From the NCBI GenBank assembly GCA_018398585.1, contig JAGTTD010000001.1, positions 25,737,438-25,801,437 on the forward strand: a stretch of DNA of 64,000 nt, written 5' to 3'. Source of the stretch: Simmondsia chinensis. Lineage: Eukaryota > Streptophyta > Magnoliopsida > Caryophyllales > Simmondsiaceae. Of the stretch, positions 8,620-62,961 are shown one piece after another. The notes under the pieces are model-generated. The model had not been told where the DNA came from and ran no database searches. It saw nothing but the letters and a program-made list of their open reading frames with translations. Position 1 is the stretch's first letter, and each line of letters starts with the position of its first letter. A program made the translations under genes and the position numbers.

Positions 8620-8957
8620 TGTTATAATTCGTTTAGTTCATTTGAATTTTTAATTGTTGTAATAATGTGTGGGTATTGTTGATTTACAATTTGAATTGTA
8701 GTTAGGGTCCGGTAGGCACCAAAATCGGGTGTAGCGGTTAGTTTGGGGGCATCTTGGTGCATTGTGTCAAGATCTATTATAAATAGATCTAAAACTTGTA
8801 ATCTTGGCATTCAATGAATAAAAATTCATATTACCATTTGGTTAATCCTCTCTATTCTCATCTCCTTCTCTATTTTCTCATCTCCCTTCATTTCTATTTC
8901 TCATCTTACCTCTATCCTTCACAAGGTTAGCTATCAATTTAGGGTTGGTAGTTAACA
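8620..8957 (+). repeat. TE-3 5' LTR
   Basis: 338 bp, TG...CA. TATAAATA at 8778-8785 lies about 180 bp before the primer site. Confidence 0.95.
8778..8785 (+). promoter_or_regulatory. TATA box in TE-3 5' LTR
   Basis: TATAAATA inside AGATCTATTATAAATAGATCT, a palindromic setting. It is repeated in the 3' LTR. Promoter role is inferred from position. Confidence 0.5.
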
Positions 8958-9001
8958 TTTGGTATCAGAGCTGGTTCAAGTGGTCAATTGCTTGAATTGA
9001 G

Positions 9002-12000: not shown

Positions 12001-13826
12001 TATGCCGAATTTTGAGGAGGACTTCATTTTGGAGACCGATGCTAACGGGACTTGGGTGTGGGGCTATTCTTTCACAAAATGGAAGACCGATTGCTTATTT
12101 GAGTCAAGCCCTTAGTCCTAAACATCAGGCCATGTCCACCTACGAGAAAGAGTATTTGGCAATCCTTCTTTCAATTGAGAAATGTAGGCATTATTTGGAT
12201 GGACATAGGTTCATCATATGAACGGATCATCAGAGTCTCAAGCATCTTTTGGAGCAAAAGATAGTCACACGAATCCAAAAGAAGGGGTTGATGAAGTTGC
12301 TTGGGTTGGACTATGCTATCGAGTATAAAACGGGGAAAGAGAACCCGGCCGCAGACGCTCTTTCCAGGAAGTTTGAGGACCTTGAGCAAGGTTCTTGTCG
12401 GGCATTATCCATCGTTTTACCTTCTTGGATGGATGAAGTCTACAAATCTTATGAAGGGGACACATTTGTTCAAGAGACCGTGGCTGCAGTAGTAGCTAAA
12501 AACAGCTCCGAGAATGACAGTGCAGCTGGTGTTAATGTGCAGAGTGGTATTATCCGTGTGCAGAACAGAATTTACATTAGTTCCTCGACTGATTTGAGGG
12601 ATCAGATATTGAAGGCGTCTCATGATTCAGCTTGGAGTGGTCATTCCGGGGTTGAAGGTACTTATCAACGAGTCAAGGCATATTTTAGTTGGTCCGGATT
12701 GAAGAAATCTGTCTCAAATTTTGTGAAGTCTTGCGAGGTGTGTCAACAAACAAAGCTGGGGGATCATCGATACCAAGGACTCTTGCAACCACTTCCCATT
12801 CTGGAGGGTGCTTGGATCAACATTAGTATGGATTTTATTGAAGGACTTCCCAAGTCCGATGGTAGGGAAGTAATTTGGGTCGTGGTGGATCGTTTCACGA
12901 AATACAGCCATTTTATAGCCTTGATTCAACCTATTACAGCTGAAAGGTTGGCTAAGAGTTTCTTAGACAACATATACAAATTGCACAGATTCCATTGTCT
13001 CGGATAGGGACAAGATCTTTACGAGCAACTTTTGGCGTGAGTTGTTCAAATTGTTAGGCACAACCTTGGCACTCAGTTCATCTTACCATCCTCAATCGGA
13101 TGGACAAACAGAGAGAGTCAATCAGTGTGCCGAGCAATATCTTCGAAGTATGGTTTTTTCCCGACCTCGAGAGTGGAATCAATGGCTTTCTTTAGCGGAG
13201 TATTGGTTCAATACTCACTTTCATGCTTCCCTTGGCACATCTCCCTTTCAAGCATTGTATGGATACGCACCACCAACTCCAATGTTGCTGCAGCAACGCA
13301 ATCCATCTGGTTCTGCAGCAAAGGACCTGATTCTGCAGAGGAGGGAAATGACTCAGCTCCTCGAATGAAGTTTTACGGTGACAAAAAAAGGGTAGACAAA
13401 GCTTTCGAAGTGGGAGACATGGTCTAGCTAAAATTACAACCCTATAGACAGTCCTCATTGGCTGTCCGAAGAAACGTCAAGCTAAGTGCACGTTACTTTT
13501 GTCCATACCGAATTTTGGAGAGGATCGACAATGTTGCTTATAAACTTGATTTACCATCACATTCGTGCATTCACCCCGTGTTTCATGTTTCATTACTTAA
13601 AAAACAGGTTAAGAGGGGTGTTAAAAGTTCCAAAGCACCACCAGAAACAGAATTAGATGGAATTTTGCTGTTGGGACCGGTTGCTGTCAAGAAATCCGGC
13701 CTGATTGCAGCAGGAATAGGGTCTTCGCATCAGATTTTGGTGAGATGGCAGAACTTGGATAAAGATATCCTCACATGGGAGAATCCAACATTCTTGAAGA
13801 GTCAAGTCCCGAGCTTTTCTCCTTGA
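9002..13826 (+). pseudogene. TE-3 gag-pol polyprotein (Gag, PR, RT, RNase H, integrase), with stops and frameshifts
   Basis: A single frame covers gag to RT. Visible in order: GVRTRSGAGGG near the Gag start (9033 ATG or 9002); capsid '[13 protein letters not shown]'; zinc knuckle CYRCNQPYQLGHRC near 10325; protease [12 protein letters not shown] near 10583; RT with [11 protein letters not shown] and the FFDDMLIYS catalytic box near 11597; RNase H (ETDANG, YEKEYLAI); integrase zinc-binding H-x-H ... CEVCQQ, then the D-D-E residues in MDFIEGLP, SDRDKIF and QTERVNQ. The C-terminus has HPVFHVSLLKK and a weak chromodomain-like segment. In-frame stops lie near 9194, 9542, 9558, 9749, 10913, 11024, 11390, 12219 and 13425; frameshifts near 12050, 12985 and 13355. 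It is therefore inactive despite young LTRs. Confidence 0.93.
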
Positions 13827-13855
13827 GGACAAGGAGCTTCTCAAGGGGGAGGGAA

Positions 13856-14193
13856 TGTTATAATTCGTTTAGTTCATTTGAATTTTTAATTGTTGTAATA
13901 ATGTGTGGGTATTGTTGATTTACAATTTGAATTGTAGTTAGGGTCCGGTAGGCGCCAAAATCGGTTGTAGCGGTTAGTTTGGGGGTGTCTTGGTGCATTG
14001 TGTCAAGATCTATTATAAATAGATCTAAAGCTTGTAATCTTGGCATTCAATGAATAAAAATTCAGATTACCATTTGGTTAATCCTCTCTATTCTCATCTC
14101 CTTCTCTATTTTCTCATCTCCCTTCATTTCTATTTCTCATCTTACCTCTATCCTTCACAAGGTCAGCTATCAATTTAGGGTTGGTAGTTAACA
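13856..14193 (+). repeat. TE-3 3' LTR
   Basis: 338 bp, preceded by TCAAGGGGGAGGGAA. It differs from the 5' LTR at about 7 positions. Confidence 0.95.
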
Positions 14194-14198
14194 TGATG

Positions 14199-16685: not shown

Positions 16686-17045
16686 TATTATGATGCAAGA
16701 TCAACCTTGAATCATAGTCTAGGATAAATGTAGAATTAGAGTGGAGATGAGAAGAGAATTAAAGAATTAAGATGAGAATTAGAGAATTGAGGTGAGAAGT
16801 AGAGAAGGGTAGGGTTGAGAGAAGAAGAATTAGATCATGTCATTCATCAATGAATCATCTACAATACAATGCCAATCCTTTATACTATGAGCTAACTAAG
16901 TCGGTTGAACCAAAATATCAAGCAATACAATGAATCGAACCAACTTAACTACCAATGATAAGAACTAAGCCTTTCTCGCCACAGACCTATTCAAATATTA
17001 CAGGAATTGCTCTTAAATTCACTTCTTTAATCTTGAATCATGACA
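16686..17045 (-). repeat. TE-4 3' LTR
   Basis: 360 bp. The left end is mutated (TATTATGATGCAAG instead of TGTTATGATTCAAG). Confidence 0.88.
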
Positions 17046-17099
17046 ATACCCCCTCCTTAACAACACTCTTGTCTCAAGAATGAAGTAATGGAAATTGGC

Positions 17100-18009
17100 T
17101 CGTAATGAAACTCAGCCTCTCCCAAGTAGCAGCTTCATGATCCGAATTAGTCCAAAGTACCAATACTTGCTTTACTGAATTGCCCTGCTGCTGAACTTCC
17201 CTTGAACCCAAAATTGCTGCTGGTTCCTGCTTCAGTCTTCCATTAGTAGTTATCTCTGGAGCTGACTTAGAACTGATCTCGCCTACAGCAATGTGCTACT
17301 TCAAAAAAGAAACATGGAAAATAGGATGGACAAAGGAGTCTAGTGGTAGCTCCAACCTATATGCTACTCTTCCAACCTTCTCTACAACTTTGTAAGGACT
17401 AAAGTAACGAGCACTAAGCTTCACATTCTTGTGAACTGCTACAATGGCTTTTCTATATGGCTGCAACTTCAAGTAAACAAGATCTCCCACTTGAAAGGAC
17501 TTATCAACCCTCTTCCTATCAGCATAGAATTTCATCCTAGCTTGAGCCAACTGCAAATTGTTTTTTAACTGCTGCACCAATTCCTTCATTCGCATCAACA
17601 AATCATTTACTTCACTCAGAGAAGAAGTAGTACCTTGTATCAACATTGGAGATGGAGGATCATAGCCATAAAGAGCCTTGAATGGAGTTGTCCCCAAGGC
17701 AGCATGGGCGTGTGAATTGTACCAGAATTCAGCTAATGACCCATACTCCTCATAAATGGACAAATTCATGTGTTTTGGGCTAAGACCCTGACTCAAATAA
17801 GCCACTGACCTTCCCCTTTGAGAAAGAACTGCCCCCATTCCAGTACCACTAGCATTTGTCTCCAATGTAAAGGGAATGCTAAAGTCAAGCATCACAAGCA
17901 CAAGAGCTGAACACAATGCCAACTTCAATCTTTCAAATGCTTCTTGAGCTTTCTCAAACCATTGGAAGGCATCTTTCTTTAGAAGATCAGTAAGGGGTTT
18001 AACAATCAT
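17100..18009 (-). pseudogene. TE-4 in-frame fusion of RNase H to integrase C-terminus
   Basis: One 237-codon open frame (17296-18009) starts in the RT/RNase H connection ([24 protein letters not shown]), runs through RNase H (LETNASGTGMGAVLSQRGR, AYLSQGLSPKH) and passes directly from 'LSIYEEYG' to 'SLAEFWYNSHAHAALGTTPF', which is the end of the integrase core. It ends with the integrase C-terminal signature HPIFHVSFLK, and a decayed chromodomain-like tail follows to about 17100. The end of RNase H and the H-H-C-C and most of the D-D-E domain are deleted, about 1 kb compared with TE-3, near 17735. Confidence 0.85.
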
Positions 18010-18780
18010 GCCATATCCAACTACAAACTTCCTGTAATAACCTGTAGTCCCAAGAATCCCCTTAATCGCTTAAGAGAAACAGGTGTAGGCCATTGTCTCA
18101 TTACTTCAATCTGGGCTGGATCAATATCTACTCTGAGGAGATAATGTGACCCAAGTATTCTACCTTATCTTGAGCAAAGGTACATTTAGACAGCTTAACA
18201 TACAACTTGTGTGGCCTCATGAGCTCAAACACTTGACTAAGATGATCCACATGTGAGTACAATGAAGGACTATATACCAGTATGTCATTAAAGAAGACCA
18301 AGACAAATTTCCTTCACAGAGGCTTGAAGACTGAATTCATCAAGCCCTAAAATGTAGCTAGAGCATTGGTTAACCCAAAGGGCATCACCACAAACTCATA
18401 ATACCTATGATGAGTTCTAAAAGTAGTCTTATGAACATCTTGCTCCAATACTCTAATCTGATGGTATCCCTGTCTCAAATCCAGCTTAGAAAAGAAGTGA
18501 GAACCATGTAATTCATCCAGCAGATCATCTATGATTGGAATTGGAAACTTATCTTTGATAATGAGAGAGTTAAGCTGTCTATAGTCTATACACATCCTCG
18601 ATGTACCATCCTTTTTCTTGACTAGTATAATAGGAGAAGCAAAGGGACTATGAGAGTGTTTGATGAATTCAGTTCTCAATAGCTCATCCACTTGCTTTTC
18701 AATCTCACTTTTCTGAGACTGTGGATATTTATAAGGTCTCAAATCCATAGGGTCAGAGTTAGCCTTCAATGGAACAACAT
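18010..18780 (-). pseudogene. TE-4 reverse transcriptase
   Basis: The RT core is open at 18347-18769: [21 protein letters not shown] entry, '[19 protein letters not shown]', '[14 protein letters not shown]', 'MPFGLTNA'. The catalytic V/F-F-x-D-D-I-L-x-Y box is readable at about 18270-18300 in another frame, close to a deletion and stops. Frameshifts separate this block from protease and RNase H. Confidence 0.85.
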
Positions 18781-18783
18781 GAT

Positions 18784-19540
18784 CTAGAGATCTCTTGGGA
18801 GGAAGACTCTTGGTTGCTCAAATAGATCACAATAGTCCCTAATCAGCTTATGAATTGGAGGGTGAACTTCCTTCTCATCCTGAACTAGTTCTGCTGATAT
18901 GGAAAACAAATTACCTACCCACTGGTTGTCCTTCTTCCACAGGAATCCATCAACCTTTTTACCACTCAACATCTTAAGTTGTCCTTGGTCCACAGTTCCT
19001 TGCAACTTGACTGCTTTACCATGTAAATCAAAGGAAACCGAGAGCTGACTGAAATTAATCACCAAAGGACTAATGGTCTTCATCCAATCCACCCGAAGCA
19101 CCATGTCACATCCCCCTAACTTCAAAACTCTGAAGTCATATTAGAATTGGTGGCCTTGCATCTGCCAATTGGATTGATTACACTTCATTTGGGTGAGCAT
19201 AGAATTCCCATTAGCAACAGTCACGGCTAAGGGACTTGTCTTGATCATTTCATGACCCACTCTCTTTACTATCTTGGGATCAACAAAACTGTGCGTGCTT
19301 CCACTGTCAATCAAGATCAAAAGTGATTTATGATTTGCTTCACCCTTGATCCTTATGGTGTTGTGTGATCTAGTGCCAGTCAAAGCTCTCACAGATATCT
19401 CCATTTCATTCTCATCAACGACTAGCTCTTGCAACAACTCCTCTTCTTGTTCTTCGTTTGCATCCTCTTCCACTTGCTCATCTAACTCTTCTTCAGCCTC
19501 AGCCCCAGTTACTGACATAAGGAGCTTAGGATTGCATTTA
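18784..19540 (-). pseudogene. TE-4 protease region and linker to RT
   Basis: The - strand frame contains [18 protein letters not shown] (retropepsin D-S-G), then, after a stop at about 19141, '[19 protein letters not shown]', the second conserved protease motif (usually V-L-G-x-D-W). An acidic stretch rich in E/D (about 19420-19510) precedes it, as in the related Gag-PR linkers of TE-3 and TE-6. The normal G-V/I of VLGVDW is changed to R-V here. Confidence 0.85.
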
Positions 19541-20640
19541 TGACCAAAGAAATGTCTTTGGTTGCACTTGAAACACAGTCTTCGAGCCTTCTTCTCTTCG
19601 AGACTTAAGGTTTTAGGGGCACCTTACTGCCAACTGATGTTGAACTCATTGCCGCATTCTTGCTTTTGGATGCCTCTGAATTAGCAAGCACAATAGCCTC
19701 ATACAGCTTGGCCATGGAATAAGCCCGAGACAATATTAAAGGATTAATGGCCTTAACCAAATTCTTGATCTTTGGCTTAGAACCGTTGATGAAGCTAGAG
19801 ACATAGTATGCTTCACTAGCACCCGGATTGACTGCCATCATTCTTGCTCTAAGGTTCTCAAATCATGTCATATAATCTCTCATAGTAGTGGTTTGAGTTA
19901 CTTTGTTGAAGTGATCCACCACATCTCCCGAATCCTCATCTCCATATAGTTCACAAAATTCATCATCAAATTCATACCAAGTAATGTCCAGATTATTGAG
20001 GAGCAAGCTATGAAACCACACCTCATGGTCTCCACTGAGTTGAACTGTAGCCAATTCCACCTTCTTTGCATCCATCACATGATAAAAATAGAAATATCTC
20101 TCACACCTCCTAATCCAAGACTGTGGCTGTGATCCATTAAGGGTATCAATTTTGATCTTAGGATGCCTGAAACCGCTGCTCCTGGTCACAAATCTAGCTT
20201 CAGTTCTTTCCTCTAACACTCGAGGATGCATTTGGTTAGGATGTTTGCCATGCTGACTTGTTGGTGTCAAAAATCCAGCTCCCGGGGATGCTGATTGAAG
20301 GTTAAGTTACTCCTGCATATCACTCATCTGTCGTTGCATTTGTTGGCTCGTATTGTTATTATCTCTTAATTCTTATTTAATACCTGCCATTGCTGCTACT
20401 AGCTCCTGAATTTCAGCTCTTAGCTGATCCTGACCTTCTCCTTGATTCGAACTTACTCCTGTAGTGACTCCAGCTTAAGTTCCTGAAGCAATGCCAACAG
20501 TAGCAGCTGCATTTGCAGCAGTAGCACCAGCTCGAGTTGTAACTCCTCCAGCCATTGGAACAGCTATGCACAGAATTGTCACATGGTCCGGACCAGTAAC
20601 ACTCAATGTGTGTGAAGTAGCTGATTGCGAGCTAGTATAA
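19541..20640 (-). pseudogene. TE-4 Gag
   Basis: Starts near 20575 with GGVTTRAGA, the short N-terminal motif also present in TE-3 (GVRTRSGA) and TE-6 (GGVTTRSGA). The capsid follows at 19863-20270 (RRCERYFYFYHVMDAKKVELA, GDHEVWFHSLLLNN) and 19605-19841 ([22 protein letters not shown]). The zinc knuckle near 19540-19590 reads as C-F-K-C-N-Q-R-H-F-F-G-H-K-C. Several stops break it. Gag would form the particle that packages the element RNA. Confidence 0.85.
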
Positions 20641-20719
20641 GTGATCGGATGTAACAAATCAGTCAAATCGAATGCAATTCAATTTGATCAACAACAATCA
20701 AGCAAGCTCTTATACCAAT

Positions 20720-21078
20720 TGTTATGATTCAAGATAAATCTTGAATCATAACCTAGGATAGATGTAGAATTAGAGGGGAGATGAGAAGAGAATTAGAGAA
20801 CTAAGATGAGAATTAGAGAATTGAGGGAAGTAGAGAGAGTTAGGGTTAAGAGAAGAAGAATTAGATCATATCGTTCATCAATGAATCATCTTAAAATACA
20901 ATGCCAATTCTTTATACTATGAGCTAACTAAGTTGGTTGAACCAAAATATCAAGTAATACAATGAATCTAACCAACTTAACTACCAATGACAAGAACTAA
21001 GGCTTTCCCGCCACAAACGTATTCGAATATTACAAGAATTGCTCTTACATTCACTTCTTCTAATCTTGAATCATGACA
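20720..21078 (-). repeat. TE-4 5' LTR
   Basis: 359 bp with intact TG...CA ends. On the - strand its last 50 bp (CTATCCTAGGTTATGATTCA...) match the end of the TE-1 LTR closely. Confidence 0.9.
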
Positions 21079-36807: not shown

Positions 36808-38537
36808 GTATCCTTTGAATAATTTAAGTTGGCCGTGTTTATCTTTTGGGAGTTTTTATATTATCTTCTCATCTGTAACATTTCAATCGACTGAGGTTTG
36901 ACATTTGTTTCCTATTCTTCTTTTTCTGGCAGCTGAAGTGGTGCTTTACTGTATGTTATAGCAGCTTTTATGTTTCCACTTTCGTTTGTGTATTTCATAC
37001 TTGATTACCTTAGACGACCGGAATTCTGTATTCCCAACTTGGCAACTGGGAAGTCAGTCTAGGATGGGTAAAATATATAGAGATTTGTAGTAGAGAAATA
37101 ATGAGATGTTTTAACTAACTTTTTGAGCTAATTTCGGAGGTGTCCTCTGGCCGGTAGTTCTTTTCATTCATGTTGGTGATCAATGTGTTATGGATTCTAG
37201 GAGTCAAAAATTCTTCACAAATAACGTAAAAATTAATGAAAGCAGGAGCGAACTAGAATTATATTATGTTTTCTGTAAAATCAGTCAGGCATTCTCCATT
37301 CTTTTTTTTTTTTTTTTGCAATTCTTTTGCCATTCAGTGCCACAATGTTTCCATTAACATCTTATGAGCCCTATCTCGGTGGTGTATCTCCCACCGCAAG
37401 AAGGCAAGGCAGGTTGTTGAAACATGGGAAAAAATGTTCAACTCATCCCAGAAAGAGCAATGTGTTTCTTTTCTCTATCTTGCAAATGATATATTGCAAA
37501 ATAGCAGGAAAAGGGGCAGTGAATTTGTGAATGAGTTCTGGAAAGTCCTTCCTGCTGCTCTTAGACACATTCATGAAAATGGTAATGAACTTGGCAGAAA
37601 GACCGTCTCCAGACTTGTAAGTGTATCTGTCTTTTTTGTTGTTATTATTATTATTATTATTATTATTAGTTTATTATTTTTCTTCTTGGATTTTATAAGC
37701 TTCTCTCTTTTTCTTATTCTCCTCCTTTCTACCTGTGGAAGACATGTCGAGCATGCACAAGAATGTTTTATTTTCCTTTTTCTTATGTGCCTTTGTGTGT
37801 GGACTGTGCTGAGTTTGGCGATATCGAGCAATTGTTTAGTTTGATTTTCCATTATTTTTCCTATTGACAATCATATTTCAGGATTCACATTCATTTCAGG
37901 TGCTTTCCTTCACTTAACTAATTGGGAATATTATGTAATAAAAAAACTGTAGTTCTACTTGATCGTTCAGCCACTCACAATTGTACTTCTCTTGGTTGAC
38001 CTTTTTCTAATTTCTACTTAGGTTAATATTATTAAATAGGCAATGTCGAGCATCTAGATTTGGGACCTGATATTGGAGTTGGGATTCATAATTCCAATTT
38101 GTTGCTTGCTGGTAGCTGCAACCAGAGTTGACTGTGCAACAGAATCGAAGGTCGCATACCCGAACATAAACTAAGTTCTCAGTTGTACTGGAATGGGAAT
38201 TTTGATTTTTAGGCCTCCATGGAATTGGGTTATAATATATATTTTGACTATTTGGAGTGGTGGAAAAATACAATTCCATATAAACTTTAGGGATCCAATA
38301 TTTGAACTAGGATTTTTTTGCAAATGACCACCTACATTTTATGCCATTTAGCTTTTAACTACCAGATTTTTTTTTCATTTTGCATTTAACCACCTCAAAA
38401 AAAAGTTTGGGTAGCAAATGACAATCAGTTAATCCCTTCGTCAACCAAAATCGAATATTTGGATGGAATATCCAGCTTTGGCTGACGGAGGAATTGTGGT
38501 CATTTGTTATCCAAACTTTTTTTTAGATGGTTCAATG

Positions 38538-38572
<35 letters not shown>

Positions 38573-41500
38573 AACCAAAAAAAAAGGCTAAAAAAAAAAA
38601 ATTGGGTGGTTAAGTGCTAGATGCCACAAACTGTAGGTGGCCTTTTGCAAAAAACTAGAAATTAATTATTATTATTAGTGATGGAGATAAAAACTAATAA
38701 TCAAACATTATTTCAGTATATGTATATGTCAGTCTGACATGGCATCAAGAAATCCCCTTGGCCACTTAATGACATAAACAAAGATGCGGGGCATGATTCA
38801 TGTGAAGCATGAGAATTGTTATTTAGGGTGATATTATAGTGACTTACTTAGGGTTTATCTGTTGAGACTTTAACAAAGCAAGTCTATCTTCTTGTGGCTT
38901 ACTTTTTAGGATATGATAAATTAAAGAATTTAACTTGGATAATGAACACTCATAAGTAATTAATTAATTTTTAGTATGCTCATTTATGCAAATCTAAATC
39001 GTAATAACTTTAGTATAATCTTAGTATAAATGGCTAATGTAGTGGTCTAGTGGTGTTAAACACGCTTGGTTGCCTCTTCTTTTCCACAAGATCGATCCCT
39101 TATAATAGCTCACTTTCCCATTTCCCTTTAAAACATTTTCAAGTCGAGATATATAGTAATCTTAGATAATTCATGTTACTAAAAAATTTATCATTCATGT
39201 GCCCAAGTGCGGTATGCCATGATTCGCACAAGAAAATAATATAAATAGAATTAGCAAAAGTTTTTATTTTGCCTTAGCATTTAGAGCATGTTTGATATGA
39301 GGTTAAAAGAGGTTAATGGTTTCAGGGGTAACTATTGCACCTTTTTTAACCCCATCTGCCTTACTATTAACATTTAACTCATAAAAAAGTTAACCCCAAA
39401 TGGGGTTAAAACATTGTACTACTACCTACTAAAGCAAATGGTCATTACAAGGGAATGGTAAAAATTGTACTAGTTGTTTTTTCTGTTTTAGGTTGAAAGA
39501 TTATAAAAAGTTTTTTTTTTGCAAAAGACCACCTATATTTTATGCCATCTAGCTGTTAACCATACGATTTTTTTTTTGTTTTTGCATTTAATCACCTAGG
39601 CTATGTTTGGCGTCAGCTGTTAGCTATTGGCTGTTGGTTCTTAGCTGTTAGTGGATGGTTGTTAGCTGTTAGCGTTTAGCTGATTGACCAGTTGTTAACT
39701 GTTGGCTGATAAATAAATGAGTAAATGCAAGTATTTGGTAAAATCAGTTGTTACGATTAGTTTTTTCAATGTAAATTACATATAAAGACTTTTAAAAAAA
39801 ACCAAAAGAGTTAATAAAATAGTATGACTTCTTTTTTATCAATTAGACATCACATTTATAAATTAGGTAAAATAGTTGTATAAATTAACTTTTTTTTCAA
39901 TCATAGTATGGATTATCTTATATTATGTGAATTCTAATAATTTCAATTTTTTGATCAATGTAACAATTAAAATATTGATAATAGTAAAATGAGTTTGGTT
40001 TAAATTAATTAATTTTTAATATTTTTTAAATTAAGTTACAATTCTATCTGTAAAATTAATTTAATATTTTTAGAAACATAAATAAGGTCATATATTTATG
40101 TTGTATTTTTTTTAGAAAATAATAGAAGGGTACACTAGTAATTTAATATGTAAAAAGCTAAACTCTAAACTCTATAGCTTTTCAAAAGCTAACCTCCAAC
40201 CGCTAAAAGCTACGCAAAATGCTGACTTAAAATTATTTACCGAACACCAGTTTTAGCTGTTTGACTATTCAAAACTCTATGAAAAAGCTTTACCAAACAT
40301 AGCCCTAAAAAAAGTTCGGGTGGCAAATGATCACTAGTTAACCCCACTGTTAGCCAAAACCGAATATTCCATCCCAAATGCATGCAATATTTAGTTTTGG
40401 CTAACGGAGGGGTTAACTAGTGGTCATTTGCGACCCGAACTTTTTTTAGGTGGTTAAATGTAAAAACAAAAAAAATGGAAGGAATATTCGGTTTTGGCGG
40501 ACAGAGGGTTAACTGGTAGTTATTTGCTACCCAAACTTTTTTAGGTGGTTAAATGCAAAAAAGAAATTAAAAAAAATAAAAAATAAAAAAATCGGGTGGT
40601 TAAAGCTAGATGGCATAAAATTTAGGTGGTCATTTGCAAAAAGCCCTTAGAACGAACCCAACTTGATTGACCTAAAACTCACGATGACTCGAAATTGAAA
40701 TGACTTGATCTAACTTGAATTTGAGCTAAACTCAAAATGACACCAATCGATTGACCGAATCCTTGATGACCTGGCCATTTAGACTTGACCTGATCTGACT
40801 TGAAGACCGAAATGAACCAACCCTTTTGACCCAAAACCAAAGATAATTGAAACCTAGAATGATCCTACTGAAACACAAACTATCCCAACATGATTGACAT
40901 GAAACCCAAGGTAATCCAAAGTCATCTAAGCTGACTCGAATCCGAATTGGATATGACCCAACCGTAGGTGATATGAAATCTGAAATAACCCAACGTGACT
41001 CGAATAAAAAATGAACTGACCCTGCTAAGATCCGACTTGAATTTACCTGAGTCCAAAATGACCTAGCCATATAAACCCGAAAACCTACTCATACCCAAAA
41101 ATGACCTGAGCAGACTCAAATCCAACCCAAGTTTATATAAAACCCGAAAGGATCCAGCGTCATTAACTAGAAACCTGCCCTGAGTAAGAATTCTTACTGG
41201 GATTATAATTCTAGCGTTTTAATCCTTTGATTATCTAAAGAATGGAATTTCAATTCTTATATAAAATGGAATACTAGTTCTATCCTAATTCCAGTTCTTC
41301 AAAATTGGAATCGAATTGTGATTCTATAGTGGAGTCCTAATTCTATGTGCCAAATGGAGCCTTAATGAATTTCATCTTCTTCCTGTTATTTCTGAGTTCT
41401 ATGTTTCTTCCTTGTACTTCTGTAGTTTCTTGTTACAAATTGTTAGCTTGAGAGATTGGCACTGCAAGTGATATATTAAGCTTATGTAGTATTTGATAAT

Positions 41501-44500
41501 GTTTATTATGGGACATGCTGTGGAAGTTTCCTTCCTAAGTAATGGAAAAAATGCGGCACAGATATTCCTTCAAAACATATTTTGTGGGGAAGCCCATTGA
41601 TTCTAAATTTATAGCACTGATAATTTTTTATCAACCTTATTGCTTTCTGAAAAGGAATTAAAAATGGTTGTAGTAAAGAATTGATGATATATGTTTGTAG
41701 AAATACTATAGGAGAGGCAGTATGGTGCTACTGGCTAGCAACATTGAAGAATAATTCTAAAATGCAATTGATGAAGTCTTTCTGAAGGATAGACTCTTTA
41801 CTGTTGTCATTTTAGTTGCTGTGTTCAAGGTTTCATGTAGGAAGGGGAGTCTGGGGAGCAAATTTACATTCTGTTTGGAGGCATGTGTTACATTCTTTTC
41901 TTTATTTTTCTCTATTGGGAAAATGATTTACAACTGTGTGTGTGTGTATTATTTTTTGTTGAGTGCTTTGATGTGTTTGATTGCATGCTTGTGTAGGTAT
42001 TTGAGCAGTGGTGTGGTATTGATGGGTATATGGGGTTGTTACTTGAAGCCTGCCGCGCAGGGAAATTATGTTTAGAACAAACCGGAGTAGCACTAAATGG
42101 GTTATTGTTGGTGTGCTCGTATGTTTGGAATAGTATGTATGCAGTGTATTATAAGAATTGAATTAAGTTACAATTTGCTGGCTTGTTATGGTCGCGGTTG
42201 CCATATGGTGGAAGCAGGATGTCAAGGACTTTATGTAATGGGCCACCACGCTTGTGCTGGATTTTTTTTAAGGGAAAGTAAATTGCTTTTAAGTGAAACA
42301 TCCTCGCTACAAGTTCCACTCTGTAGGGGTAAGGCTACGTACGTCTTACCCTCTCCAGACTCTGCCTTGGCGGGAGCCTCTTTGAGGCATTGGGTTGTTC
42401 TTGTTGTTGTAAATTGCTTTTAAGCTTTACACAAAAATTTGATGACCAACTATACTATCATTATTGTACATCTTTGACAGATTGATATATATAAAATATT
42501 TTGTATTTATATTTTAGTAATGTAATTGCGTAAGTGGGTACCAACACGCAAGCATTGGATCCCATTAGAACTCCGAAGTTAAGCGTGCTTGGGCGAGAGT
42601 AGTACTAAGATGGGTGACCTCCTGGGAAGTCCTCGTGTTGCACCCCTCAGGTTGGGGGTTTGGTAAGCTCCAAGATCTACTTGAGCTTAACCTTGTGGAA
42701 TGATAGGATAGTGAAAGAATCAAGATGAGAAGAGAAGTGAAAGAGATGAGAGATTAGAGAAAGTTAGATGAGATAGAGAGAAAATATCTCAAAGAGATGA
42801 TTGTAATTTTCATTGAATGAATCAATATTACACTTGAGCAAGCTATTAATACTAGATCAAGATACATTGCACATAGGCAAAACCGAAATCAGCTAGCTAG
42901 GCCTTAGTCGCCACATTGACCAACACTTGACCTTACAATCGACTTAACTAACAACTAAGACCTTTGGCGCCAACAAGAAGCCAATTCAAACATTATAATT
43001 CAGTTAATGAAACGCAGCACTTAACTAGAGCTAATACATCCAGACTTAACTAGCATAACAATAGCAAGATCATAACATTCCCCTCCTCTTGAAAACGTTC
43101 TTGTCCTCAAGAATTGGAAGGTAGGAAATTGACTCCTCAAGAATTGAAGCTCTTACCAAGTTGCATTCTTCTTGTCCAAATTGGTCCATTGCACCAAAAC
43201 CTCCTGAATTGTTCTGTCACAGCCTTTACCTCGTGTGAATCAAGCACAGCAGCAGGTTGCAGAAGTAAGGTTCCATTTGAGCCAATGTCCGGAGGATGAA
43301 GTGAACTTCCACACCCCCTTTTCACCTGTTTCTTGAGAAAGGAAACATGAAAAACAGGACGAATGTAAGCGTTAGGAGGTAAATCAAGCTTGTAGGCTAC
43401 TTTGCTAATCTTCTCAAGGATCTTATAAGGCCCAAAGAACCTAGCACACAACTTCACATTCTTCCTCACAGTCATGGTTGCTTGTCTGTAAGGTTGCAAT
43501 TTCAGATAAACCATGTCCCCAACTTCAAAGTTTCTGTCCACATGTTTCTTGTCTGCATACAACTTCATTCTAGCTTGTGCTTGATGAAGATTATCTTTCA
43601 ACATCTGCATCAATTATCTCCTCTGCTGTACTAGATCAGTAACTTCAGGAACTGATGACAATCCCTTGCAATGTCAATGGTGTTGGAAGATCATAACCAT
43701 AAAGAGCTTTGAATGGAGTAGTTCAAATAGAAGCATGAGCATGTGTATTGTAGCAATGCTCTGCGAGGGATAACCACTTGCTTCACACTTTGAGATGACT
43801 GAACACCATGCTCCTGAGGTATTGCTCAAGGCACTGATTGACTCTTTCAATTTGTCCATCGGTTTGAGGATGGTATGATGAACTAAGAGCCAATGTTGTT
43901 CCCAAAAGGTTGAACAACTCCTTCCAGAAGTGACTTGTGAAGATCCTGTCTCGATCTGATACAATAGATTGTGGCAAGCCATGAAGCTTGTAGATGTTGT
44001 CCAAGAAGCTCCTTGCCAATTTCTTAATTGTCATAGGTCTTACCAAGCCAATGAAGTGACTGAATTTGGTACCGATCAACCACAACCCAAATAACCTCCT
44101 TCCCTTTTGATTTGGGCAAGCCCTCAACAAAGTCCATGCTAATATTCTGCCAAGCTCCTTCAGGGATTGGTAAAGGTTGGAGAAGACCTTGATATCTATG
44201 ATCACCCAACTTAGTTTGCTGACAAACCTAGCAAGCCTGCACAAAATCAGCCACTGCTCATTCCTGTCCAGCTGAAATAGGCCTTAAGCCTTTGATAGGT
44301 GCCTTCAACCCCTGAATGTCCCCCCAGGCTGAATCGTGAGAGGCACTGATGATTTGCTATCTTAATCAGTGGAAGAGCCAATGTACAACTTGCCCTTTAA
44401 TCAAATAACTCCCTTCACAATAGACTCCTCCGCATAAGTGGCAGTACTGCTTGTTCTGCTCACACTAAAAGCTGTTATAGACTCTTGTGCAAAAGAATCA

Positions 44501-47500
44501 TCCTCATAAGACTTATACACCTCTTCAACCCAAGCTGGAAGTATAATAGACACTGCTCCACAAAATCCTTGCTCATAATCTTCCAACATGCGAGACAATG
44601 CATTAGCTGCCACATTTTCTTTCCCTTTCTTGTACTCAATGTCATAATCACGCCCCAACATCTTCATTAACCCCTTCTTCTAGATCCTTGTGACAATTTT
44701 CTATTCAAGAAGATGTTTCAAACTTTGGTGATCAGTCTTGATCGTAAAGTGATGCCCATCAAAATAATGCCTCCACTTATCAACAGCAAGCAAGATTGCG
44801 AAGTACTCCTTCTCATAGGTGGACAATGCTTGATGCTTAGGACTCAAAGCTTGGCTGAGGTAGGCTATTGGCTTCCCCTTTTAAGACAAAATAGCCCCAA
44901 TACCATTTCCACAAGCATCTGTCTCTAGGATGAATCCCACAGCAAAATCTTGCATTGCTAAAACTAGTGCCTTACACATTGTAGACTTCAAAGCTTCAAA
45001 TGCTTCTTGAGCTTTATCTGACCACTTAAATGCATCTTTCTTCAATAGATCAGTTAGAGGTTTGGCTATAGCTCCATAACCAGCAACAAACTTTCGGTAA
45101 TAGCCAGTCAAGCTCAAAAACCCTCTCAACTGCTTCAAGGTCACCGGCACAGGCCACTCCTTCATTGCTTGGACTTTAGAAGGATCAGTAGAGACTCCTT
45201 CATGAGAGATAACATGTCCCAAATATTCCAATTGGTTCTGTGCAAAGGAACACTTAACCAATTTTGCATATAACTTGTGATTGCGCATGATCAAGAACAC
45301 TTCCCTTAGATGCACCAGATGATCTTCCAATGAAGAACTGTAAATCAGGATGTCATCGAAGAAAACCAATACAAATCTCCTCAAGAACCACTTGAAGACA
45401 TCGTTCATTACTGCTTGAAACGTTGCTGGAGCATTGGTTAAGCCAAAGGGCATAACCACGAACTCAAAGTGCCCATGATGTGTTCTAAAAGCAGTCTTGT
45501 GCACATCTTGCTCAAGTACTCTGATTTGGTGCTATCCTTGCCTCAAATCAAGCTTGGAAAAGATATGAGCTCCATGTAGCTCATCCAACAAATCATCTAT
45601 GACAGGAATTGGGAACTTATCCTTCATCGTCAATGAGTTAAGATGCTTGTAATCTCTACACATCCTTGCCGTGCCACCCTTCTTCTTAACAGGTATGACT
45701 GGAGAAGTAAAGGGGCTGTGGCTCTGCCTCACAAAACATGTCTTGAGCAATTCAACCTGCCTCTCAATTTCAGTTTTCTGTGCATGAGGATACTTATAGG
45801 GTCTCAACTTCACCGGCTCAGAATTTGGCTTGAGAGGAATTGCATGATCTAGATTCCTCTTAGGAGGTAATGCTTTAGGCTGCTCGAACAAATCCTCAAA
45901 CTCTTCTATCAATGCTCTTACTTCAGGTTGAGGAATGTCTCCCATCTCCATTGGAGATATTGCAAACAGTTGTCCTACCCACTGATATGCATTCTTCTTG
46001 AATCCACCTTTCAGCTTCTTGCCTTTAATCACTTGCAACTGAGCTTGATCAGCAAGACCTTGCAGAATCACCTTGGATCCTTCTACCTCAAATGATACTG
46101 TCAGCTTTGCAAAATAAAAAACCACAGGACTGAAGGTTCTCATCCACTTTACTCCCAAAACCATGTCGCATCCTCCCAAGGTCAAGATTCTGAAGTCATA
46201 AACAAATTTGTGATCTTGCATAGACCACTGAAACCCTTAACACTTGTTCTGAGTTAGGATTGAATTTCCATTAGCAACAGTCATTGCTAGGGGTGAGTCT
46301 TGATAACTTCATGTCCCACTTTCTTCACCACCTTTGGATCAATGAAGCTATGAGTGCTACCGCTATCAATCAAGACAATGATTGATCTCTTACCTGCTTT
46401 TCCTTTGATCCTTATAGTATTGTGAGTTCCATTCCCTGTCAATGCTTTCATGGAGATCTCAACTGCATCTTCAATCAGCTCATCTTGTGATTCCTAGCCC
46501 AAATTATCCTCTTCAATCTCAGATTCATCACTGCCAGATTGCTCATCAGCACTGACTCCTCTAGCTGTCATGAGAATTTTAGGATTGCATTTGAGGCCAA
46601 ACTGCTAAGGCTGATTGCATTTGTAACAAAGCCTTTGAGCTTTCTTCTCAGCAGAACGAGTAACCTTGGGCCTATCAAATCCCTTCTGCTGCTTGGAGCT
46701 TCCTCCCTTGTACCTTAGTCCACCAGAAGAAGCAAGAACTGTGGCCTTAAAGAGCTTAGCTTTGGACAGTGTTTTAGGACCAATTGCCTTCACAAGGTTC
46801 TTGATTTTAGGCTTTAAGCCACTAATGAAACTCGAGACATAATATGCCTCAGTGGCTTGAGGATATGCAGCTATCATGCTCGCTCTAAGGTTCTCAAACC
46901 TTGTCATATACTCCTTCACAGATGTTACTTGAATCACTTTGTTGAAATTATCCACAATGTCACTTGAGTCTTCATCACCATATCTCTCGCAAAGTTCTTC
47001 CACAAACTTAGCCCAAGAAAGAGCAGGATTAGTCTTTAATACCCTATAAAGCCACACTTCGTGATCTCCTTGAAAATACACAGCAGCCAATTCCACCTTC
47101 TGCTCATCTGAAATGTTATAAAAGTGAAAATACTGATCACATCTTTTAATCCAAGACTGTGGCTGCTTGCCATCAAAAGGTTCAATCTGTATTCTTGGCT
47201 ATCTAAATCCACTGCTTCTATTATTGGATGAAGCATCATTACTTCCTGATTGCTGCTGATGCCTCTGATCAGGTGGGCTATCCAACTGTTCAGCATTCAT
47301 ATTGGTAGATCTGAGGTGTTCTGGATGATTAGGAGGGCGATCATTCTGTTCTAAGATTCATACTGGAAGATCAAGATTGCACTTGATCAAACAGTTGATC
47401 ATGAGGTCTGGCAGTTACTTTAGCCTCTGGAATTCGATCTTGAGGTCTAACATCAGCTCCCTGAGGACGAATTTGGGGACTATCAGTCACATTAGCCACT

Positions 47501-49498
47501 TGAGGTCTATCTTCAGATTCAGCAACAACATTCAGAACTTGAGATTGAACCACATTAGAAGGTTGCATCTGCTGACTTGCAAGCAACAAGATTCCAACTC
47601 CGGACGAAACACCTTATCTATTGACCTGATCTTGCAGACCAGTAAACCTTTCCTCCAATTGTTGCAATTGCTGAGACATTCGACCTTCAAACCTCTGATT
47701 GCTCTCCAGCTGAACTTGCCTCATCAGCTGAAGCATTCGTTGATCCCTCTTTTGATCATTCTCCTGCTGCATTTGCTTAAATCGATCGAACATTTCATCC
47801 CTCTGTTGATTGTTCTCCTGCTGCATTTGCTTAAATCGATCGAACATTTCACTCATCTCTGATTTCAACTGATCATTTGTAACGAACTGAACATTTCTTG
47901 CTGCACTAGCACCAACTGCCTCAGCATAAGAGACATTAGGATCAACAAAAGTAGCTGGATTTCCAGCTCTTGCTCCTGATCGAGTTGTTACACCACCAGA
48001 CAGTGTTGAATTCTGTTTCTTGCACTTTGCCAGCTCGAATCAATCAACAAACGAGCAATTAACAGCCAGACCTGGCTCTGATACCAAGTGTTAAGCTCCA
48101 AGATCTATTTGAGCTTAACCTTGTGGAAGGATAGGATAGTGAGAGAATCAAGATGAGAAGGGAAGTGAAAGAGATGGGAGATTAGAGAAAGTTAGATGAG
48201 ATAGAGAGAAAATATCTCAAAGAGATGATTGTAATTTTCATTGAATGAACCAACATTACACTTGAGCAAGCTACTAATACTTGATCAAGGTACACTGCAC
48301 ATAGGCAAAACCGAAATCAGCTAGCTAGGCCTTAGCCGCCACAATTGACCAACACTTGACCTTACAACCGACTTAATTAACAACTAAGACCCTTGGAGCC
48401 AACAAGAAGCCAATTCAAACAATACAATTCAGTTAATGAAATGCAACACTTAACTAGAGCTAATACATCCAGACTTAACTAGCATAACAACAGCAAGATC
48501 ATAACAGGGTTCTCGGAAATAGCCTCCCTTCAGGGTAGCACCTTGAAGGGGGAAGGTTGCGTACATCCACCCCCCTAGTCTCTACTCAGGCGGGAGCCCT
48601 TGGGGCATTGGGAATGTTGCTTTATATATTTTAGTAATGTAATTACAATTTATAATACTAAAAAACAATACTATTGATACACATTGTGGAGGTTACAAAA
48701 TACAATTATGTAATAGAAAATCGCACATTGACAAGCTCAAAATCAGCTATGTATTTGTTAGATTCCATGTTTATAAGCATACCGTTTAATAGTGATTCAT
48801 TATGAACGTTATGTATGATCTTTATCATTTGTATTTTACTTTATAATGTTGGTGGAGGCAGTGCCGATTGTCTGTTTGTCCAGGTCTATGCGTTCTCATT
48901 TTTTTTGTCCATCTCACTCAAGAAGAAATTTATTAATTTTTTTCTACAACAGAACAACAGTCAAAACAGGATAGACACAGATGAAGCTTTCATTGTTTTT
49001 GCAAAATTAAAGGAAACAAGAACCTTCACTTACTTCGACGTTCCTTATGGGCCTTTTTGTAACTATGCTTTAGGTGGACATATGGGAAGAGCGGAAGGTT
49101 TTTGGATCTCGTGGTCAGAATCTTAAAGACGAAATTCTGGGGAGGGAACCTTCTTTGCGGGTGTCAACCACTGCAAAGAGTAATAATCCCGTCAAGATAG
49201 TAAAGAAAGATGCACACTTACTAAGAATTGTCAGTGTTACTGCTTTATGCCTCTGTTTCATGATTTTCTGCATTCAATCATTTGTTTAGCGTATGAACCT
49301 TTTCACATAATGAAGTGTTTTCTTGCTTCTTGTGATTTCAGAAACTGGAAGTTGGAAATTTGCCTGAGAAGATTGTGACAGCATTTCATAATGTTCACGA
49401 TGGATGTTCAAATGAAGAATCAACATTGGCCAACTGTAATGCTGCCGTCCTTTCTGTAGAAGGATTCAAGAAAGAATTGGAAAGCAATGTTATTCAAG
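36702..49498 (+). CDS. CID-domain protein of the RPRD / Rtt103 type (partial; exons 36702-36807, 37369-37616, 49074-49229, 49342-49498)
   Basis: The only host gene recognised. Joined exons give the N-terminal CTD-interaction domain (CID), an all-helical fold that in this family binds the phosphorylated C-terminal repeats of RNA polymerase II in the nucleus and links transcription to 3'-end processing and termination. Diagnostic stretches are '[16 protein letters not shown]', '[20 protein letters not shown]', '[19 protein letters not shown]' and '[12 protein letters not shown]'. Then comes the linker '[20 protein letters not shown]'. Exon phases fit (1, 0, 0, then 1). Introns are 561, 11,457 and 112 bp; the long one is full of transposons. 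The last exon ends in a normal donor (CAAG|GTATGC), but no exon for the C-terminal coiled-coil region was found up to 64000. The gene is either truncated or has another very long intron. No stop or frameshift was seen in the four exons. Confidence 0.88.
37369..37616 (+). CDS. CID gene, main CID exon
   Basis: After acceptor TTATGAG the exon reads CC-CTA-TCT-CGG-TGG-TGT, which completes the split codon and gives [20 protein letters not shown] and the core helices. The stretch from [12 protein letters not shown] to ALRHIHENG is nearly identical to what I know of plant family members. It ends CTT|GTAAGT, phase 0. A non-coding TTA/ATT microsatellite lies 25 bp into the following intron. Confidence 0.9.
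38311..38652. mobile_element. MITE copy 1, long TIRs, contains a (C)30 run
   Basis: Both ends are inverted copies: GATTTTTTTGCAAATGACCA at the left, and AGTTTTTTGCAAAAGGCCAC as reverse complement of the right; CCACCTACA is shared further in. The flanking 6-bp AACTAG is on both sides (38305-38310, 38653-38658). The middle is a second inverted arrangement around CCAAAATCGAATATT / GCTTTGGCTGACGGAGG. No coding capacity. Confidence 0.75.
38541..38570. repeat. (C)30 homopolymer
   Basis: Thirty Cs followed by an A-rich stretch, inside MITE copy 1. The corresponding place in copy 2 is A/T-rich, so the run arose after the copies separated, or is a sequencing or assembly artefact. Confidence 0.9.
39507..40645. 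mobile_element. MITE copy 2, interrupted by another MITE
   Basis: Same family as 38311-38652: the left end TTTTTGCAAAAGACCACCTA and the right end TAGGTGGTCATTTGCAAAAA form TIRs, and the GGTTAACTAGTGGTCATTTGC type inner repeats are shared and partly duplicated (40310-40560). It is split by the element at 39599-40304. Confidence 0.75.
39599..40304. mobile_element. MITE with GGCTATGTTTGG ends (PIF/Harbinger-like)
   Basis: Terminal inverted repeat GGCTATGTTTGGC / reverse complement of ACCAAACATAGCC. The 3-bp CTA occurs on both sides (39596-39598, 40305-40307). The TIR style and 3-bp duplication suggest the PIF/Harbinger (Tourist) group. It contains no transposase and a repetitive CAGCTGTTAGC / GGCTGTTGG start. 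Confidence 0.7.
40646..41360 (-). repeat. Degenerate GACTTGA/GACCCA-type repeat stretch
   Basis: Dense short motifs (GACCTAAAAC, TGACCCAA, AACTTGATTGAC) in no fixed period, ending near 41340 in CCAAATGGAGCC, which as reverse complement (GGCTCCATTTGG) looks like a MITE end. Similar sequence on the other strand is seen at about 56290-56480. A 112-codon - strand frame here is not believed. Confidence 0.5.
42294..42408 (+). mobile_element. SINE S1, TTG-tailed (Au/TS-like 3' part)
   Basis: The sequence carries GGGGTAAGGCTACGTACGTC, ACCCTCTCCAGACTCTGC and the end TTCTTGTTGTTGTA, the known 3' half of the widespread plant SINEs that end in TTG repeats. A 16-bp duplication GTAAATTGCTTTTAAG brackets it exactly (42278-42293, 42409-42424). 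It lacks a tRNA-like head, so it is 5'-truncated. Confidence 0.88.
42528..42660 (+). mobile_element. SINE S2, first part: 5S head and start of SINE body
   Basis: Begins right after the 20-bp direct repeat TATATTTTAGTAATGTAATT (42508-42527). The 5S portion ends CACCCCT and continues CAGGTTGGGGGTT, which aligns with the start of the SINE body in S4 (CTCAGGTTAGGGGCCCTCGG) and S5. It is cut by TE-6; the second part begins at 48512. Confidence 0.88.
42534..42647 (+). rRNA. 5S rRNA-derived sequence forming the head of a SINE (not a functional 5S gene)
   Basis: From GGATCCCATTAGAACTCCGA (about 42557) to GTTGCACCCCT the sequence is nearly that of plant 5S rRNA, including the internal pol III promoter: box A (GTTAAGCGTGCTTGGGCGAG), the intermediate element (one change, AAGATGG for AGGATGG) and box C (GGGTGACCTCCTGGGAAGTC). 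The first 25 bases of 5S are diverged or shortened (GTGGGTACCAACACGCAAGC). It is not followed by a T-run terminator as a 5S gene would be, but joins a SINE body. Confidence 0.9.
42661..43077 (-). repeat. TE-6 3' LTR
   Basis: 417 bp. Its left terminus reads TGGTAAGCTCC against TGTTAAGCTCC in the other copy. Confidence 0.95.
43137..48035 (-). pseudogene. TE-6 gag-pol polyprotein, broken
   Basis: Reading down the - strand: [13 protein letters not shown] near 48000, a coiled coil with a 54-bp tandem duplication (47761-47868), capsid ([34 protein letters not shown]), zinc-knuckle start CYKCNQP near 46615, protease with I-V-L-I-D-S-G-S near 46370 and [13 protein letters not shown] (46110-46180), RT ([31 protein letters not shown] near 45350), RNase H ([14 protein letters not shown]), integrase (H-x-H-x-C-C remnants, [32 protein letters not shown]) and the C-terminus [16 protein letters not shown]. 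Stops and at least four frameshifts are present. In RT the normal D-Y-R-Q is D-Y-K-H, and in 'RMCID' the I is R. It is inactive. Confidence 0.92.
47761..47868 (-). repeat. 54-bp tandem duplication in TE-6 gag
   Basis: Two nearly identical 54-bp units (47761-47814, 47815-47868) encode [18 protein letters not shown] twice in frame, lengthening the predicted coiled coil by 18 residues. Confidence 0.9.
48089..48506 (-). repeat. TE-6 5' LTR
   Basis: 418 bp, next to the primer-binding site at about 48071-48086. Confidence 0.95.
48512..48624 (+). mobile_element. SINE S2, second part: SINE body and tail
   Basis: CTCGGAAATAGCCTCCCTTC, then GGTTGCGTACATCCACCCCC, GGCGGGAGCCCTTGGGGCAT and a short tail GGGAATGTTGCTT. 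It ends exactly where the second TATATTTTAGTAATGTAATT (48625-48644) begins. S4 and S5 align over the whole body. Together with 42528-42660 the insert was about 246 bp before TE-6 arrived. Confidence 0.88.
49074..49229 (+). CDS. CID gene, exon after the long intron
   Basis: 156 bp, 52 codons, phase 0 to 0: [20 protein letters not shown], then '[28 protein letters not shown]'. The first line is the end of the CID; the rest is a basic linker. The donor ATT|GTCAGT is weaker than consensus but starts GT. Confidence 0.9.
49342..49498 (+). CDS. CID gene, linker exon
   Basis: Acceptor GATTTCAG, then [20 protein letters not shown] and '[23 protein letters not shown]'. It ends CAAG|GTATGC in phase 1, so at least one more coding exon must follow. 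Confidence 0.88.
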
Positions 49499-51542: not shown

Positions 51543-51675
51543 CCTTTACAACAACAATAGTCCACTGCCTCAAAGAGGTCCTCGGCAAGGCCAGGTTTGA
51601 GGAGGGTAAGATGTACTTAGCCTTACCCCTACAAAGTCCTACCCTTTAGAGAGGATGTTTCCGAAGGGCCCCTAG
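51543..51675 (-). mobile_element. SINE S3, TTG-tailed family
   Basis: Reverse complement reads GGGGCCCTTCGGAAACATCC, GGGGTAAGGCTAAGTACATC, TTACCCTCCTCAAACCTGGC and ends CTATTGTTGTTGTAA. It is the same family as S1, with a longer 5' part. The 3' end abuts the (G)32/GGGATTTCCC tract. Confidence 0.82.
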
Positions 51676-56745: not shown

Positions 56746-56869
56746 TGCTTTCGTTATTTGCCTATTATTTGCCTTTCGTTACTTTCTGCTTTCGTTATGC
56801 TTGCCTTATGCCGTGTTTTTGCTCTTATGCTTTTATGCTCTCATGTTTTTATGCCTTCATACTTCTCAG

Positions 56870-56973
56870 GTTAGGGGCCCTCGGACATATCCTCCCTTTA
56901 GGGAAGGCTGCGTACCCTCCCGACTGCTTATGCAGGAGCCCTTGAGGCACTGGGTTTTGTTGTTGTTGTAGTT
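56870..56973 (+). mobile_element. SINE S4, TTG-tailed
   Basis: CTCAGGTTAGGGGCCCTCGG, GGGAAGGCTGCGTACCCTCC, GCAGGAGCCCTTGAGGCACT and the tail TTTTGTTGTTGTTGTAG. The bases before it (56745-56869, TATGC/TTTCGTTA-rich) may be its 5' part, but no pol III boxes are convincing. Confidence 0.8.
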
Positions 56974-62798: not shown

Positions 62799-62961
62799 TC
62801 TCTCTCTGTGCCGTTGGTTTTATGCTTTTTAGTTTGGGGGTCCTCGGGCATAGCCTCCCTCGAGGGTAGAAGGAGTAAGGCTGCGTACATCTCAACCACT
62901 CCCCGACTCTGCATTGACGGGTGCCCTATACGCACTGGGTTTGTTGTTTTTGTTGTTGTAT
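62799..62961 (+). mobile_element. SINE S5, TTG-tailed
   Basis: CTCTCTCTGTGCCGTTGG, then AGTTTGGGGGTCCTCGGGCA, GTAAGGCTGCGTACATCTCA and the tail GGGTTTGTTGTTTTTGTTGTTGTA. Its duplication ATTAAGGAGTTT(G/C)ACTC is at 60804-60820 and 62961-62977. The left copy is separated from the SINE by solo LTR 'b', which inserted within it. Confidence 0.85.

Follow-up and report, generated by a model that had tools for sequence, protein, structure and literature searches.

We found that a short composite of 5S rRNA-like and LINE-like sequence in the genome of Simmondsia chinensis is a member of a multi-copy SINE family and not a one-off; very probably, it is a copy of a plant family of the SINE3 type, with a 5S head and an RTE-like LINE tail, that is mobilised by a LINE and descends from a founder made by template switching. 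The composite lies in a window of 64,000 nucleotides (the whole stretch of DNA that was analysed; C31:25737438-25801437 of a host genome of 831,394,711 bases in 35 contigs). An earlier note on this DNA had described a 5S rRNA head joined to a SINE body, bounded by a perfect 20-bp duplication and split by an inserted element (TE-6) with a GGGTT duplication of its own, with about 246 bp left after removal of the insert. These features were all recovered (Table 1): the 20-bp repeat, TATATTTTAGTAATGTAATT, is an exact pair and occurs at just these 2 sites in the window even when up to 3 mismatches are allowed (shuffle mean 0.02); the head matches the Rfam 5S_rRNA model over its full length (42530-42646 (+), model positions 1-120 of 120, 78.5 bits, E 5.7e-15); and removal of the insert, for which both the LTR pair and the GGGTT duplication were found, leaves 246 bp. 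Beyond the insert, 48507-48623 is 92.3% identical to positions 129-245 of the family consensus. The junction at 42642-42660 could, by eye, form a small hairpin between CCCC of the 5S 3' end and GGGG of the LINE part.

Table 1. Parts of the window copy of the SINE and of the LTR retrotransposon within it, in window coordinates
Feature	Position	Strand	Basis
Left target-site duplication, 20 bp	42508..42527	+	Exact pair with 48625-48644
5S rRNA-derived head, with presumed box A, intermediate element and box C	42528..42646	+	Rfam RF00001
LINE-derived body, first 14 bp	42647..42660	+	LINE 3' ends match consensus from 119/120
GGGTT, left duplication of the LTR insert (last 5 bp of the first body piece)	42656-42660	+	
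Younger Ty3-type LTR retrotransposon (TE-6) within the SINE	42661..48506	-	LTR pair, Pfam pieces
GGGTT, right duplication of the LTR insert (repeats the GGGTT of the body)	48507..48511	+	
Remaining LINE-derived body and tail, ending ...GGGAATGTTGCTTTA	48512..48624	+	Family consensus, LINE 3' ends
Right target-site duplication, 20 bp	48625..48644	+	Exact pair with 42508-42527

The insert is 5.8 kb long and contains frame pieces on the minus strand that match the Pfam families Ty3_capsid, Retrotrans_gag, RVT_1 and RT_RNaseH_2; among the best 120 protein matches listed for a frame piece, the named ones are all from flowering plants. Its LTRs (42661-43077 vs. 48089-48506) differ at 22 of 417 aligned sites (K2P 0.055), and this divergence, halved per lineage, comes to ~2.8% as against the 6.5% that separates the window SINE copy from the family consensus, which fits an order in which the SINE was inserted first and a Ty3-type LTR element would later have split it. 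The window also holds two further LTR elements that are 67-68% similar to the SINE's insert (8620-14194 and 16688-21078, with LTR-pair identities of 97.9% and 90.8%, respectively), and, at 38313-40642, a group of mutually related repeats in direct and inverted orientation that is MITE-like by eye and includes a 147-bp near-palindrome (86%, at 40304-40450).

Whether the composite was a one-off or one of a family, a question raised by the earlier note, was settled in favour of a family. With the 246-bp composite as query against the host genome, we scored the best 40 of 5924 first-look candidates, the latter figure not being a copy count. All 40, chosen as they were by likeness to the window copy, proved to be near-full-length 5S-plus-body copies with 89-92% identity on 18 contigs, covering composite positions <=16 to >=241 and keeping the 5S/body junction (one more partial match was listed), and an Rfam 5S match was obtained in each of the 20 loci scanned, out of 30 loci. 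We then compared the 250-bp flanks of a set of 46 copies (36 copies of >=180 bp at 30 loci, shorter matches being left out, and 10 further scored places); both sides were alike in one pair only, L060/L067, a segmental duplicate whose members lie ~34 kb apart on C15 with flanks 95.6 and 98% alike. As no other pair shares both flanks, the other copies are taken to be independent insertions. The head of the composite is the window's sole 5S-like sequence, just as it would be had a single template switch taken place at this site and never been recopied; nevertheless, such a chimera is an extremely improbable account, given the 40 of 40 candidates that keep the junction, the flanks that differ in all but one pair, and the many copies with duplications of their own.

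The family consensus is 245 nt without its variable tail (unit ~245 bp). All 49 aligned copies are ~4.5% or more from this consensus, so that present activity is not established, and conservation among copies (0.948 in the head and 0.912 in the body) is roughly as expected of post-insertion drift. Twelve random 10-kb stretches contained 2 more copies in 120 kb, and both of the Rfam 5S matches in this random sequence were members of the family; extrapolation from these 2 copies gives a copy number of ~14,000 (Poisson range ~1,700 to 50,000) for a draw that was confined to 20 contigs and limited ranges there, with 12 of 60 drawn stretches used. The flanks of the 30 loci, a non-random sample, held 6 further copies in ~90 kb. 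One of the random stretches carried a plant C/D box snoRNA, snoR71 (L098, 1336-1442; Rfam 47.2 bits), and at locus L061 (1501-1882) there is a local tandem duplication: behind a family copy come part of another SINE 3' end and recurring flanks that resemble AATAATGAAGTTGATGAT.

Target duplications at the ends of the unit were found in 32 of the 46 copies, to which the 20-bp pair of the window copy comes in addition; one of them (L075_640) is doubtful and to be discounted, as it sits between tandemly repeated flanks, which leaves 31 sound. Under our rule, the repeat had to end <=6 nt from the expected 5S start and its partner had to start between -15 and +70 nt of the match end. Among the first 36 copies, 23 had a duplication (score >=11, lengths 11-21 bp), as against 3/1260 positives in the control of mismatched 5'/3' flank pairs, and 9 of the ten further copies had one of 15-22 bp. 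This control supersedes an earlier one with shifted positions, which had given two high scores (25 and 15) and otherwise values of <=9. One boundary falls no more than 6 nt from the start of the 5S, a placement imposed by the search rule, and the other just after the tail. L1-type insertion is expected to give duplications that start in A runs; the 23 positives started with TT in 7 cases and AA in 4, and a strong preference for an A-run start was not evident among them. The inference in the earlier note that a 20-bp duplication means that both parts were inserted together is supported: one duplication surrounds the 5S and body parts alike and the pattern recurs in the family.

It could be argued that the unit spread as a passenger of another repeat (a DNA transposon or a segmental duplication) and not by LINE-aided retroposition, in that 14 of the 46 copies are without a convincing duplication, L060/L067 is a segmental duplicate, and L061 shows local tandem repeats of a partial copy. 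We consider this very unlikely: L060/L067 is the only pair among the 46 copies with both flanks in common, exact inverted matches between the two 40-nt ends of the consensus do not exceed 6 nt, the sound duplications lie at the ends of the unit, and its 3' end is LINE-derived.

The consensus opens with ~11 nt that are common to the copies and do not match 5S (ACCTAAGAGGG), continues as 5S to position 119, and then as body to GGGAATGTTGCTTT. Compared with Arabidopsis 5S, the head shows 8 differences in sites 1-11, 6 in sites 12-49, 2 in sites 50-97, and 2 beyond, one of which is an end gap, so that most of the divergence is located outside the internal control region; higher divergence upstream of the promoter has been described for SINE3s (PMC10886601). 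A near-full-length 5S head with box A, intermediate element and box C would be suited to TFIIIA/pol III transcription, but the non-5S first ~11 nt and two changes in the control region (sites 79 and 81) leave promoter function less than certain. The lack of TTTT runs inside the unit carries no weight as evidence, as 57% of shuffles are likewise without them. The element is not a tRNA-headed plant SINE (TS, Angio-domain superfamily): its head is 5S, and an ARAGORN scan of the window and of 52 loci gave no tRNA gene.

Two other sources of the 5S part were weighed. Because this part is near full length, one could think of dispersed 5S pseudogenes or 5S gene fragments that came to lie beside LINE 3' ends by chance; we give this next to no credence, since the junction is fixed at consensus 119/120, one target duplication runs round both parts, and the departures from 5S are common to the copies. 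The other source, which according to the earlier note would refute its reading, is the LTR of a Cassandra element (a TRIM) adjoining a SINE or LINE. Cassandra is a known 5S-bearing plant retroelement (PMC10853983); however, the 246-bp unit has its 5S at the 5' end, variable duplications of 11-22 bp and no LTR pair round it, and every one of the 40 scored copies has this junction. The same paper places the Cassandra 5S in the middle of the LTR, never terminal, and gives its C-box as AGGATGGGTG outside some Asteraceae, where the SINE consensus has CAAGATGGGTG (PMC10853983). A Cassandra origin is therefore rejected on structure, with only a slight residual chance.

The reading that we prefer, of a 5S head on a LINE-derived tail, is borne out by the body. 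When 70 consensus matches (genome loci and window) were considered, 49 started at positions 1-27, 21 at >=116 (ten of these at 116-123), and none at 28-115; because no match starts in this last interval, the unit appears to consist of two modules that meet at the 5S end. With a body-only copy as query (best 40 of 2656 candidates scored, 8 loci, of which the three with the longest shared homology were extended), we found four LINE 3' ends in L107-L109 that align with the SINE consensus between 119/120 and 234-241 (85-88%); the similarity begins exactly where the 5S ends, and ~120 nt are shared. Judging from these alignments, the SINE body corresponds to the terminal ~120 nt of a LINE that resides in this genome. 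Homology among the three loci extends over 566-790 bp, takes in the 3' end, and covers a frame whose translation looks like the C-terminus of a reverse transcriptase. Its Pfam match to RVT_1 is weak and confined to one of three pieces (13.5 bits, cut-off 29.6); among the best 120 matches listed, it has relatives in Nicotiana, Solanum and others, a few of them named reverse transcriptase, and the named ones come from flowering plants except for one bacterial plasmid record. No intact LINE was seen among the LINE loci examined.

TTG repeats follow these LINE 3' ends. Among the LINEs of flowering plants, those of the RTE clade have been catalogued with (TTG)n or (TTGATG)n ends, and nearly all of the L1 type with A runs (PMC3747384). 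The TTG repeats, taken together with this tail rule and with sequence motifs, suggest that the partner LINE is RTE-like. The description of the element in the earlier note as a TTG-tail SINE was right in part: TTG runs occur in some of the 5S-headed copies, but most end in GTTGCTTT and a variable T run. The 3' end of the SINE may resemble the Angio-domain / TS-type 3' end. Similarly, the body does align with two other elements of the window that had been called SINEs (S4 and S5), but these are without 5S and are better read as LINE 3' ends. Four body-like stretches of the window are without 5S, two in which the match begins at composite positions 119-122, that is, at the 5S end (56865-56954 and 62831-62950), and two in which it begins inside the body (42295-42407 and 51548-51664); all four have the appearance of LINE copies truncated at the 5' end, and not of SINEs. 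Immediately upstream of the 5S-headed copy, 42278-42424 is a body-only insertion of the LINE 3' end type with its own 16-bp duplication (GTAAATTGCTTTTAAG, at 42278-42293 and 42409-42424).

We propose that the founder of the family most likely arose when the LINE enzyme, after copying the 3' end of the LINE, switched to a 5S rRNA at the 3' end of the latter and read it through. A switch to the 3' terminus of the mature 5S RNA is favoured because the junction coincides with the point at which the 5S finishes and 5S spacer is not seen; at this junction, the LINE side and the end of the reference 5S have TC or CTC in common. The new SINE would then have possessed an internal promoter of its own and a tail recognised by the LINE reverse transcriptase, which would be sufficient for repeated rounds of mobilisation in trans; copying would proceed by target-primed reverse transcription, with a fresh duplication at every insertion.

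With its 5S head that includes the control region, its dispersed unit of constant junction, its variable duplications, and its LINE-shared 3' end, the family belongs to the SINE3 kind and is apparently new for plants. SINEs headed by 5S have been reported in vertebrates and in certain insects (PMC7245038), and 5S-related SINEs from a fungus (PMC5063351). We found no plant 5S-headed SINE in the open full-text literature (subscription papers, Repbase and SINEBase being outside this scope); one paper does speak of 5S-homologous SINE3 sequences in plants, but the reference it gives is the Cassandra paper (PMC3095306). The junction pattern had 0 matches in viral contigs, and 38 stretches with this pattern in a prokaryote collection included none that matched the composite over >34 bp.

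BovB is a LINE of the RTE type. The springhare SINE Ped-1 is, like the plant SINE, short and non-coding, with a 5S head and an RTE-type LINE 3' end, but its host is a mammal and its tail comes from BovB, not from a TTG-tailed plant LINE (PMC3747384). HaSE3 and other insect SINE3 elements likewise have a 5S head, and HaSE3 is seemingly RTE-mobilised; they differ in their insect hosts, and are likened here by design and not by body sequence (PMC7245038). The tobacco TS SINE and a potato RTE LINE share ~100 nt of 3' end with a TTG-repeat end, which resembles the plant SINE, likened here by description; however, TS is headed by a tRNA-derived part, with boxes A and B, in place of the 5S (PMC3747384). 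Cassandra, finally, is likewise a plant retroelement with a 5S rRNA promoter, but it is an LTR element with mid-LTR 5S, a methionine PBS and a PPT (PMC10853983), whereas the family described here is a SINE whose 5S is 5'-terminal and whose tail comes from a LINE.

According to its published description, AnnoSINE excludes candidates that are near-identical to tRNA, 7SL or 5S in Rfam (default E 1e-15), and its SINE-Finder step seeks boxes A and B (PMC8825457). As the 5S matches of the family copies have E-values of 3.6e-16 to 1.2e-9 (values that vary with the amount of sequence searched), some copies might be discarded at this threshold. A descent of the Cassandra 5S promoter from a 5S SINE has been reported as speculation (PMC10886601), and the 2024 Cassandra paper illustrates promoter capture of this sort with SINEs of animals (PMC10853983). 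That 5S SINEs are long-standing but overlooked residents of flowering plants, missed by finders that look for tRNA boxes or discard 5S, and could have been the donor of the Cassandra promoter, is a tentative idea that we regard as rather unlikely. The occurrence of such a family in many copies in a plant suggests that plants, too, gave rise to the 5S-plus-RTE-LINE design, and it makes testable both the descent of the Cassandra 5S promoter from such a SINE and the extent to which repeat annotation misses 5S-headed elements.
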